Source of the DNA: Paenibacillus sp. RC67
Lineage (GTDB): Bacteria > Bacillota > Bacilli > Paenibacillales > NBRC-103111
Direction: 5' to 3'
Assembly: GCF_030020805.1 (NCBI RefSeq)
Contig: NZ_CP125098.1
Span: 2,336,001 to 2,400,000 of the forward strand
Length of the DNA stretch: 64,000 nt
Position numbers and translations under genes: made by a program
Notes under the pieces: generated by a model
What the model was told of the DNA's origin: nothing
Seen by the model: only the letters and a program-made list of their open reading frames with translations
The model's database searches: none
Shown here: one piece after another, positions 9,563 to 55,538 of the stretch
Numbering within the stretch: position 1 is the first letter of the stretch
Layout: every line of letters starts with the position of its first letter

Positions 9563-9767
9563 CTTAGAGTTTTTCGAAGAAAAACTAACTTCGAAAGCAT
9601 AGACTTAGAGTTTTTCGAAGAAAAACTAACTTCGAAAGCATAGACTTAGAGTTTTTCGAAGAAAAACTAACTTCGAAAGCATAGACTTAGAGTTTTTCGA
9701 AGAAAAACTAACTTCGAAAGCATAGACTTAGAGTTTTTCGAAGAAAAACTAACTTCGAAAGCATAAG
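9563..9767. repeat. Five perfect tandem copies of a 41-bp unit
   Basis: Units begin with CTTAGAG at 9563, 9604, 9645, 9686 and 9727. A sixth begins at 9768 but diverges after CTTAGA. Copies are identical except for two bases at the very end of the last unit. Each unit can form two mutually exclusive hairpins: AGTTTTT/AAAAACT with a 5-base loop, or TTTCGAAG/CTTCGAAA with a 9-base loop. The array sits between two divergently transcribed genes and reaches the ribosome site of the oxidoreductase. Copy number is likely to vary between strains. Confidence 0.97.
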
Positions 9768-9814
9768 CTTAGAAACCGAATATTGTCAGGAAGCGATTTC
9801 TTTCTTATAGTAAG

Positions 9815-50528: not shown

Positions 50529-51644
50529 ATGAGAGATCCAAGATTAAAAGTATTGGCAAGCAATTTAATTCGATATTCCGTGAACCTTCAGCCGGGTGAA
50601 AATATTTTGATTGAAATGATTGGGATCAAAGATCAAGAGTTAACCAAATGCTTAATTGAAGAAGTACATGCTGCCGGCGGACATCCGTTTATCGAGCTTC
50701 GCGACCCAGCCGTAACCCGCAGCTTGATGCTGCATGGTACCAAAGAGCAGTATCATACGCTTAAAGAGCTGGAACTGAACCGAATGAAACAGATGCAAGC
50801 CTATATTGCTGTTCGCAGCGGTGACAACATTACTGAAACATCGGATGTTCCTGAAGCGCAAATGAAGCTGTACGTCACAGAATACCAGCGTCCAGTAACG
50901 GATCAGCGTGTAAATCATACCAAATGGTGTGTCATGCGCTACCCTAATCCGTCTATGGCGCAACTAGCGAATACAAGCACCGAGGCTTTCGAAGACTTTT
51001 ATTTCCAAGTGTGCAACCTGGATTACAGCAAAATGGGAAAGGCGATGGAATCGCTTGTTAATCTGATGAATCGTACGGATAAAGTAAGGCTCGTAGCTCA
51101 AGGGACGGACCTGACGTTCTCCATCAAGGATATCCCGGCCATTCCATGTGCAGGGAAAAATAATATCCCGGACGGCGAAGTATTCACCGCACCTGTGAAA
51201 AATACGGTTAACGGCACCTTGTCCTACAACACGCCAACGATCTACCAAGGAACCTCCTTTGAGAATGTGGTTCTGCGCTTTGAGAATGGTAAAATCGTAG
51301 AAGCAACGAGCAACAATACGAAGAAGCTGAACGAAATTTTGGATACGGATGAAGGCGCGAGATACATAGGCGAATTCGCTATTGGAGTGAATCCGTACAT
51401 TAAGTATCCGATGAAAGATATATTGTTCGATGAAAAAATCGACGGCAGCATTCACTTCACGCCGGGTAATGCTTATGAAGATGCGGATAACGGTAATCGT
51501 TCCTCCGTTCACTGGGATATGGTGTTGATTCAGCGTCCGGATTTCGGCGGTGGAGAAATTTACTTCGACGACGTATTGATTCGTAAAGACGGTAAATTCG
51601 TTATTGCGGAGCTGGAGCAGTTGAATCCGGAAAATCTAATTTAA
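50529..51644 (+). CDS. ampS: Aminopeptidase, M29 family
   Basis: A 371-residue cytoplasmic metallo-aminopeptidase of family M29. Landmarks are LASNLIRYSVNLQPGENILIEMIG at the N-terminus, GKNNIPDGEVFTAPVKNTVNG (PDGEVFTAP with the first metal Glu) and HWDMVLIQRP (HWDMV, His and Asp metal ligands) with EFAIGVNP between. Cuts N-terminal residues from peptides, needing Zn or Co. It ends at a perfect hairpin terminator. AAGGAGAG lies upstream of the ATG. Confidence 0.92.
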   Translation: MRDPRLKVLASNLIRYSVNLQPGENILIEMIGIKDQELTKCLIEEVHAAGGHPFIELRDPAVTRSLMLHGTKEQYHTLKELELNRMKQMQAYIAVRSGDNITETSDVPEAQMKLYVTEYQRPVTDQRVNHTKWCVMRYPNPSMAQLANTSTEAFEDFYFQVCNLDYSKMGKAMESLVNLMNRTDKVRLVAQGTDLTFSIKDIPAIPCAGKNNIPDGEVFTAPVKNTVNGTLSYNTPTIYQGTSFENVVLRFENGKIVEATSNNTKKLNEILDTDEGARYIGEFAIGVNPYIKYPMKDILFDEKIDGSIHFTPGNAYEDADNGNRSSVHWDMVLIQRPDFGGGEIYFDDVLIRKDGKFVIAELEQLNPENLI

Positions 51645-51656
51645 TTAAATAAAAAG

Positions 51657-51690
51657 AGGACGCAGCACAAATGCTGCGTCCTTTGATTTT
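51657..51690 (+). terminator. Rho-independent terminator after ampS
   Basis: AGGACGCAGCA (51657-51667) and TGCTGCGTCCT (51672-51682) form a perfect 11-bp stem with a CAAA loop and a broken T-run. Its left arm can also pair with TGCATCCTCTTT at 51899-51910, across the repeated element described next. Confidence 0.85.
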
Positions 51691-51704
51691 TGTGAAAGGA
51701 ATTC

Positions 51705-51880
51705 TTTGAGAAATATGCTGAAAAGTAAGTGGGGTGTGCCTCGGAGGAGTTTACGTCCGCCTTTGAAATTCGTGAAAATACCAATTAATCTAATCCAATT
51801 CACGGGTTTCAACAGCGGCTGGAGGGGCATACCCCACTGGAATTTCTTAGCAATATTTTTAGTTTCGTTGCTTTCTCAAA
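51705..51880. repeat. Structured intergenic element, copy 1
   Basis: A long imperfect hairpin, 176 bp. From outside in it has TTTGAGAAA/TTTCTCAAA (51705-51713 with 51872-51880), AATATGCT/AGCAATATT with one bulge, AGTGGGGTGTGCC/GGCATACCCCACT (51728-51740 with 51826-51838, one G-T), an asymmetric loop (23 bases at 51741-51763 and 14 at 51812-51825), and TGAAATTCGTGAA/TTCACGGGTTTCA (51764-51776 with 51799-51811, two G-T). The apex is AT-rich. A second copy with the same internal loop lies at 55340-55529. It ends at the AraC stop codon of the other strand. Confidence 0.85.
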
Positions 51881-51908
51881 AATCCCAGCACCAAACGGTG
51901 CATCCTCT

Positions 51909-52796
51909 TTACTTCCCCGCCCACTTGCGATATTGCAGCGGTGACATGCCGCAAGCCGACTTGAAGATGCGCCCGAAATGAGTACTGCTGTCGAACCCAA
52001 CCTGCTCTGTAATGCCGGTTACGGACATTCGAGTGGATTTGAGCAGCTTCTGGGCTTCCTGCACACGCAAGCTGTTGACGTATTCAATGACACCGAAGCC
52101 TGTTACTTCTTTATAAATGCGGCACAAGTAGTAAGGACTAATATGAAAATGCCCTGATAACTCCTTTAATGACATCGGCTCACGAAAATGTTCGTTAATA
52201 TATTTCACAATATCGGATACTTTACGATGCAATGTAGTTGGGTGCTCGGAAGTTTTGCCTCTGCTGTCTGAATGCTGAACGTGGCGATAAATCATAAGCA
52301 GCAGTTCTCCAAGCAGCAGCCTAATATAACCTTCAGTACCATATTGAATTTGCCGCTGCTCCCTTAGCATTTTTTCCACAATAGACTCTACCATAATGAG
52401 CTCTCTTGCATCGGGATGAAGAATAGGCCCTTCCTCGAACACCTCGAATAAATCTTCCAGGATCGAACGATACATCGGTTCCATAAAATAGTCTTTGAAA
52501 TTAATTAATATCCGCTCGTGATGAGGAGAATTCGCTTCCATTGTTTTGTGCAGCACGTTAGGCTGGATGAGGACCAAATCCCCTTTTTTTACATGGTAGG
52601 AGCGATCTTTGATGAAATAATAACGCTCCCCCGCGCGCATATAATAGATTTCGTATGAATCATGAGAATGGTTTTGCTTCATATTGAACGTATTCTTACG
52701 AATGGAATGATCCAGATGAAAGCCATCCTTTTCGGCAACGAAAGAAAACGGATTTGGCGCTGGCTTCAACATGTCTGGTGGTATGGAATGTTTCAT
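51909..52796 (-). CDS. AraC-family transcriptional regulator with cupin-like sensor
   Basis: A one-component regulator of 295 residues. Residues 15-130 form an AraC cupin (HSHDSYEIYYMRAG, VLIQPNVLHKT), and residues 190-290 form the HTH pair: EPMSLKELSGHFHISPYYLCRIYK and GFDSSTHFGRIFKSACGMSPLQYR (ISPYYLCRIYK, SSTHFGRIFK). AGGGAGG is 8 bases upstream. It is divergent from the Gfo/Idh/MocA gene with 141 bp between them, a typical pair in which the regulator controls its sugar-derivative dehydrogenase. The sensed ligand is unknown. Confidence 0.9.
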   Translation of the reverse strand: MKHSIPPDMLKPAPNPFSFVAEKDGFHLDHSIRKNTFNMKQNHSHDSYEIYYMRAGERYYFIKDRSYHVKKGDLVLIQPNVLHKTMEANSPHHERILINFKDYFMEPMYRSILEDLFEVFEEGPILHPDARELIMVESIVEKMLREQRQIQYGTEGYIRLLLGELLLMIYRHVQHSDSRGKTSEHPTTLHRKVSDIVKYINEHFREPMSLKELSGHFHISPYYLCRIYKEVTGFGVIEYVNSLRVQEAQKLLKSTRMSVTGITEQVGFDSSTHFGRIFKSACGMSPLQYRKWAGK

Positions 52797-55307: not shown

Positions 55308-55339
55308 AGAAAATGACCTGCTCAGGTCGTAAGTCTGAC

Positions 55340-55529
55340 GAGAAACCTGGTCTGCGTGAAATTTGCTATATACGGTAGGTGGGGTTTGCCCCGGAGGAGT
55401 TTACGTCCGCCTTTGAAACCCGTGAATATACCTGTGAATTTCTAATCAAATTCACGGGTTTCAACAGCGGCTGGAGGGGCATATCCCACCGTAGTATACT
55501 AGCAATATTTCAAGTTTCTTGGGTTTCTC
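55340..55529. repeat. Structured intergenic element, copy 2
   Basis: Same plan as copy 1. GAGAAACC/GGTTTCTC (55340-55347 with 55522-55529), TGAAATTTGCTA/TAGCAATATTTCA with one bulge, GGTGGGGTTTGCC/GGCATATCCCACC (55378-55390 with 55478-55490), the internal loop, and a perfect 13-bp TGAAACCCGTGAA/TTCACGGGTTTCA (55414-55426 with 55451-55463). The loop strands match copy 1 at 22 of 23 and 14 of 14 bases. The outer helices differ from copy 1 yet still pair, and the apex differs in length. Flanking arms also pair with each other further out. Confidence 0.85.
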
Positions 55530-55538
55530 CACTCTCAT

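Follow-up and report, generated by a model that had tools for sequence, protein, structure and literature searches.

The window, i.e., the 64,000 nt stretch of the Paenibacillus sp. RC67 genome that we analysed, holds two copies of what is almost certainly a structured repeat family. Overall, we read its conserved core as a cis-acting RNA module of 3' UTRs and intercistronic regions that is spread by non-autonomous transposons, similar to the bcr or REP repeats, and assign this reading a probability of roughly 0.5. The earlier note on this DNA had described a two-copy element. This number cannot be maintained: the RC67 genome provides 40 DNA-search matches (74-100% identical; 40/88 candidates scored) as well as 110 matches with E<=0.01 (150/1353 candidates scored) to R1, a covariance model derived from 57 diverse cores. 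The extents given earlier were also too short; when compared by eye with other copies, the elements span about 51684-51886 and 55330-55538. The respective features are as follows.

50529-51644: M29 peptidase gene, left neighbour of copy 1 (based on Pfam)
51655..51684, + strand: terminator-like hairpin left of copy 1, at the end of the M29 peptidase gene (terminator scan)
51684..51886, + strand: whole element, copy 1 (approximate, by eye against the consensus; ends degenerate)
51724..51845, + strand: structured core, copy 1 (R1 match, 123.7 bits, E 4.5e-31; C1:2387724-2387845 in contig numbering)
51888..51910, + strand: decayed right hairpin of copy 1, related to the left hairpin (terminator scan)
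51909-52796, - strand: convergent AraC-type gene, whose stop lies inside the decayed right hairpin of copy 1
55315..55330, + strand: left hairpin of copy 2, GACCTGCTCAGGTC (direct reading, terminator scan)
55330..55538, + strand: whole element, copy 2 (boundaries by eye)
55374..55497, + strand: structured core, copy 2 (R1 match, 120.4 bits, E 4.0e-30; C1:2391374-2391497 in contig numbering)
55539..55560, + strand: right terminator hairpin of copy 2 with T-tract, ACGACCTAACAGGTCGTTTTT (terminator scan)

That is, hairpins of host terminators stand on both sides of each window element. Copy 2 shows IS1182-like ends (AGTCTGACGAGAAACC ... GGGTTTCTCCACTCTCA), while a search for IS1182-like end pairs found no clear pair for copy 1. 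To score the duplication of the flanks, we used flanks swapped between copies as control. The gapped duplication score of copy 1 is 10 and reached by 1.3% of these controls. For copy 2, a score of 8 is reached by 15% of the controls, such that the hairpin duplication is not significant for this copy alone.

Both copies fold more stably than their shuffled versions, with z values of -6.3 (copy 1) and -9.0 (copy 2) and none of 200 shuffles reaching either. As had been reported earlier, the loop strands 51741-51763 and 51812-51825 agree with copy 2 at 22/23 and 14/14 positions (direct reading), and the same holds for the inner helix: TGAAATTCGTGAA pairs with TTCACGGGTTTCA in copy 1, whereas copy 2 has TGAAACCCGTGAA opposite an unchanged TTCACGGGTTTCA, so that C-G replaces T-G at two pairs. 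The strands of the proposed internal loop are conserved, but the asymmetric loop itself is better described by a three-way junction with a small hairpin, next to a 3x3 GGA/GGA loop. The conserved core of about 120 nt is composed of P1 (about 12 bp), the GGA/GGA internal loop followed by two GG/YC pairs, the mini-hairpin P2 at the three-way junction, and P3. P2 is closed by C-G in 31/57 rows and by U-A in 25/57. P3a reads CCGC/GCGG, in other cases UCGC/GCGA, and is followed by a CU/CA loop and the freely varying P3b; the apical loop is ACCRCU in many copies.

We assessed covariation with two alignments. A1 is a MAFFT alignment that was not fitted to the structure. It covers both window copies and 55 of the 64 cluster representatives of 141 candidate cores; nine representatives were left out, two of which are broken or chimeric. 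Since its rows were found via anchors within the conserved loops, the loop conservation that we observe across genera is partly a matter of selection. For A1, RNAalifold predicts 29 pairs, 24 of them with changes on both sides. Given the 32-pair structure including the mini-hairpin, 90.0% of the cells are paired vs. 39.5-48.3% with slid partners, and 270 cells show double changes compared to 79.8±9.9 in shuffles (reached by 0/500). Similar results are observed for A2, a model-fitted alignment that covers 100 of 305 loci as distinct rows, including more divergent ones. Here, 93.5% of the cells are paired and 731 show double changes (220±17 in shuffles). In both alignments, G-U cells are more frequent than A-C cells (123:38 in A1, 161:45 in A2), where about equal numbers are expected without selection on one strand. 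Judging from the alignments, selection thus seems to act on the sense strand in its folded, single-stranded form, although single-stranded DNA is not excluded.

No known family could be assigned. Within the window, Rfam 15 yields 0 matches at or above the gathering threshold, and a relaxed search only sub-threshold ones, with mir-263 over copy 2 at E 1.3. For 20 other loci, the relaxed search provided sub-threshold T-box and MIR950 matches, neither of which lies on the core. Neither Rfam nor the class-wide R1 search revealed a link to the bcr family. We furthermore found no tRNA or tmRNA in the window. Short ORFs overlap the copies, yet the loops of different copies vary in length by 1-2 nt, which rules out a common reading frame and thereby protein coding. 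By sequence, the core does not qualify as an intrinsic terminator, since there is no T-tract directly after it in the window and the aligned RC67 copies; in copy 2, a T-tract follows the right-hand hairpin, which is a separate structure (terminator scan). A guide-RNA system was dropped by reasoning only, i.e., because the loops are conserved rather than variable. A literature search, with most subscription journals out of its scope, returned no description of the element, nor of an order-wide fold with different carriers, fixed operon sites or a hairpin-duplicating insertion.

With regard to taxonomic range, R1 matches (E<=0.001) occur in 83/104 genomes of the family and in 257/296 genomes of the order, covering 35/48 genera. 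Within a class sample of 398 genomes, 39 match, and among those listed 38 belong to the order and 1 does not; the latter shows two weak R1 matches only (best E 6.8e-5). We infer that the order is Paenibacillales. Scanning named species genomes with a DNA pattern yielded 74 stretches, every one with Paenibacillus in its title. Two complete genomes from another family of the order, G139 and G137, contain 81 and 87 R1 matches (E<=0.001). The earlier suggestion of a so far undescribed RNA element or a family of intergenic Paenibacillus repeats is therefore borne out in both parts by range, covariation and the lack of an Rfam family at threshold. The covariance model search proposed along with it gave many matches in relatives, and pairing is kept beyond shuffled and slid controls. 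None of the outcomes that would have refuted it, namely no copies in relatives, a known Rfam family or changes that do not keep pairing, occurred.

Some matches deserve separate mention. At least 13 of the 81 matches in G139 are weak and of odd length (about 168 nt; e.g., C1:2599638-2599806) and may represent a separate repeat family. Several core copies in a row are found at single sites in G137 (C1:5421634-5422123 and 3776959-3777490) and at locus L322. Two IMG/VR contigs (L188, L189) carry the core, i.e., contigs classed as viral can hold it; each was used once in the alignments.

To study mobility, we considered 106 of the 110 RC67 matches, leaving out four short weak ones. Many copies sit in rho-independent terminators with a hairpin of about 20 bp duplicated on both sides. 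An ungapped flank score of at least 10 is reached by 44/106 copies vs. 0.6% of the swapped-flank controls. For gapped scores, a value of at least 12 is found for 40/106 (controls 0.4%) and of at least 14 for 28/106 (controls 0). In the best cases, the whole stem-loop is copied exactly or near-exactly, often with a T-tract after the right-hand one only. An IS1182-like end pair is present within 2 mismatches in 46/106 copies, while a recognised pair is missing in 60/106. An ORF of at least 90 aa overlaps 13/106 copies, where ORFs were called by length only; this counts against our main reading.

A locus from a related species (L096) links these elements to a transposase. It holds an IS1182-family element (Pfam DUF772, DDE_Tnp_1_6) that is split over two ORFs, begins with CAGACTGTCGAGAAAG, finishes with GGGTTTCTCGACACTCTG and is flanked by perfect 24-bp copies of ACTTCCCTTAGACATAAGGGAAGT, with six T after the right copy. 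Its right end is identical to that of well-preserved copies of our element (e.g., L006). Given this shared right end and the hairpin duplications, the window elements resemble MITEs whose parent, an IS1182-type element, targets terminators and leaves the hairpin in duplicate, as far as can be judged from sequence. We thus consider it probable that the window version is mobile by an IS1182-type transposase. Evidence for current mobility in RC67 is less favourable. The partner transposase was not found in this genome, since PF13751 matches are only three and fragmentary (one over cut-off) and no intact IS1182 transposase is among them. These fragments, together with the 60/106 copies without end pair, count against current mobility. 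The sequence GAGTCTGTCGANAAA occurs at 15 sites in the RC67 genome, each of which is a full or partial copy; none of the 15 is an autonomous IS.

In two related species, the terminator that carries copy 2 is also occupied, each time by a different family member, which points to repeated targeting or to replacement. None of the related loci examined provided a clean empty site for copy 2. At the eight others, the upstream region differs and no copy is visible by eye within 330 nt.

Based on these observations, we propose that the copies are short non-autonomous mobile elements that share one conserved structured RNA as cargo, and infer that an IS1182-type transposase moves, or once moved, the window version. 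Insertion in a terminator would duplicate the whole hairpin while the T-tract stays behind the right-hand copy. Termination would thus be preserved, and the element would become part of the upstream gene's 3' UTR or of the intercistronic RNA of an operon. The mobile contexts of the core, i.e., IS1182-like ends with hairpin duplications, can also be explained differently. Namely, the fold might be a transposition signal, recognised by a transposase or a host replication factor in the form of DNA or single-stranded DNA, such that operon copies are mere leftovers. Single-stranded DNA also tolerates G-T pairs, so that the observed wobble excess is compatible with such a signal. We regard this explanation as rather doubtful given the following results. 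To begin with, the core was not seen in the L096 flanks and ends examined, despite the same right end.

Furthermore, the sequences indicate that the core is not tied to the IS1182-like element type, since it occurs with other ends, and no one transposase can explain a core with different ends. We find arms GTGTTCAAAA/TTTTGAACAC (L051, L064), AGGTGAAACG/CGTTTCACCT (L230) and CCTTGAAAGT/ACTTTCAAGG (L323, with duplicated hairpins). In G137 and G139, the arms are ATTTACAC/GTGTAAAT (5/15 loci) or GATTGAACTTG/CAAGTTCAATC (3/15). These arms have not all been shown to be transposon ends, and some may be stem extensions instead. In support of a transposition signal, the core of two loci (L220, L221) lies downstream of adjoining ORFs with Zn_Tnp_IS91 and Y2_Tnp domains. 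A related tail adjoins the core in L235, L236 and several others, which was identified by eye only and without domain scan of the ORFs.

A further argument against a mere transposition signal comes from two operon sites, at each of which the core has kept its place in six genomes. Within one genus, the core is located between the same two genes in 6/6 genomes, and likewise for a second gene pair (6/6). From their translated ends, we take the genes of the first site to be those of citrate synthase and isocitrate dehydrogenase (citZ-icd), and those of the second presumably encode ketol-acid reductoisomerase and isopropylmalate synthase (ilvC-leuA). All twelve sites retain the core along with partly conserved flanks. 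Among the six citZ-icd copies, two (L233, L246) fold weakly and are diverged in the P3b stem. Some gene clusters thus seem to have kept their core copies. In G139 and G137, copies are found between genes that we assume to be secA-prfB (one locus per genome), pheS-pheT, rnc-smc, hisH-hisA and fabD-fabG. The genes next to the copies examined show no common theme, with gene names partly assigned without a search.

In L223, L228 and their orthologues, a conserved and partly palindromic stretch ending in GACGAG precedes the core by about 50-150 nt. It occurs at both operon sites of the one genus.

We also compared the orientation of the core with that of its neighbouring genes. In RC67, the upstream ORF is sense to the core for 83/106 copies (binomial P 4e-9), and the downstream ORF is on the core's strand for 55/106. 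Tandem settings show 47 sense and 15 antisense cases. The bias is more pronounced for 30 loci from G139 and G137 (best 15 of 81 and best 15 of 87, respectively). Here, the upstream ORF is sense in 28/30 copies and the downstream ORF in 25/30, with 25/30 copies located between co-oriented ORFs. The upstream preference argues against a signal read during transposition. On the other hand, RC67 copies with clear duplications in tandem settings show a weaker bias (16 sense, 8 antisense), which such a signal would explain. It is mainly due to this weaker bias and the IS91-like association that the transposition signal stays open as a rival. Assuming that the origin is at the contig start, 70/106 RC67 copies are on the leading strand vs. 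289/386 nearby ORFs. The respective numbers are 49/61 in G139 and 57/71 in G137, i.e., for 61 of the 81 and 71 of the 87 matches, with weaker and unlisted ones omitted. Tandem cases on the lagging strand (2 sense, 3 antisense) are too few to separate replication from transcription.

A fold of the sense strand with fixed loops in 3' UTRs and operon gaps fits a cis-acting mRNA element that is bound by a common factor. We therefore favour a core that acts in cis on the sense RNA, within the 3' UTR or the intercistronic RNA. It would most likely be bound by a protein and act as a decay barrier or processing site, thereby determining how long the mRNA lasts or how much neighbouring genes yield relative to each other, in line with proposals for REP and bcr repeats. 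This role in mRNA decay or processing is inferred without any transcript or decay data, and we see about even odds for it. Signs that the predicted strand is transcribed are indirect only, namely the sense bias and the excess of G-U over A-C cells. A more ambitious version is possible but tentative: one RNA module with a partner of its own (a protein, or catalysis by the RNA itself) could have been captured by several unrelated transposon types across the order, and hosts could have retained it repeatedly between genes of core operons, where it would be domesticated as a control element of 3' UTRs and intercistronic regions.

The fixed nucleotides around the three-way junction, next to stems that vary freely, and the sense orientation between co-oriented genes would also suit an RNA with its own activity, i.e., a self-cleaving ribozyme, a ligand-binding RNA or a transcription read-through element. 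We consider this unlikely, as no Rfam ribozyme, riboswitch or other family matches the core at threshold and the genes beside the copies examined share no visible theme; still, neither a ribozyme nor a ligand-binding RNA can be ruled out. That the core is merely a decorated terminator or attenuator hairpin recurring by chance is hardly credible, since, even though many RC67 copies sit at terminators and the element is a long hairpin, the aligned RC67 cores lack a following T-tract with terminator hairpins being separate, most of the 30 G139/G137 copies considered lie between co-oriented ORFs, and loops are conserved across genera (for rows found with loop anchors).

A cis-acting, MITE-borne element would have known counterparts, as MITE-borne structured repeats are a known kind. 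REP/BIME sequences are likewise folded and intergenic, occur in 3' UTRs as well as in operons, and have a link to HUH (RAYT) transposases and a proposed role in mRNA stability. In contrast, the element presented here is longer and forms a three-way junction with fixed loops, and the HUH link observed so far is an IS91-like Y2 transposase in two loci rather than a Y1 RAYT. Among the literature found, the bcr repeats of Bacillus cereus are the nearest published case. Reportedly, bcr1-3 are MITE-like and often located within UTRs or operon gaps, and bcr3-bearing mRNAs show longer half-lives, where the authors caution about confounding (PMC3446304). The likeness to the bcr repeats (bcr1-bcr18), drawn without a direct sequence comparison, is that both are interspersed, folded and found in UTRs or operon gaps, and that bcr1-3 are MITE-like as well. 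They differ in that our element belongs to a different, order-wide lineage (with only one weakly matching genome outside the order among those listed), shows duplications of terminator hairpins and has a core common to several end types. With regard to insertion, IS1272 and TnSha1 of the IS1182 family target hairpins and terminators, and IS1272 deletes or replaces its target hairpin without duplication, as reported (PMC4923244, PMC5678879). The transposase of the L096 element is of the same IS1182 family. In contrast to IS1272, the whole hairpin is present on both sides in L096 and many RC67 copies, which does not fit deletion or replacement of the target.

It has long been asked whether REP, BOX and bcr repeats are junk or act as functional RNAs. 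The fold described here can be traced in about 100 copies in a genome, in most sampled genomes of the order, with several carriers and at fixed operon sites. Given the wide range of copies and the strong covariation, this question becomes directly testable in ordinary laboratory strains of Paenibacillus. Moreover, an element that inserts into a terminator and duplicates the whole hairpin would keep termination intact, which suggests a harmless way to land beside genes.

Finally, two further repeats were observed. Within the window, five tandem units of about 41 bp with CTTTCGAAGTTAGTTTT are located at 9565-9775 on the minus strand and extend up to an AGGAGG-like ribosome-binding site. A second repeat combines CTTACGAAGNAAGTTTT with a hairpin downstream, whose end TTAGGAGG directly precedes a start codon. 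This repeat is found at L228:1681-1697, L254:2193-2209, L256:2175-2191, L018:1715-1731 and others, and the exact pattern occurs in 9/364 loci.
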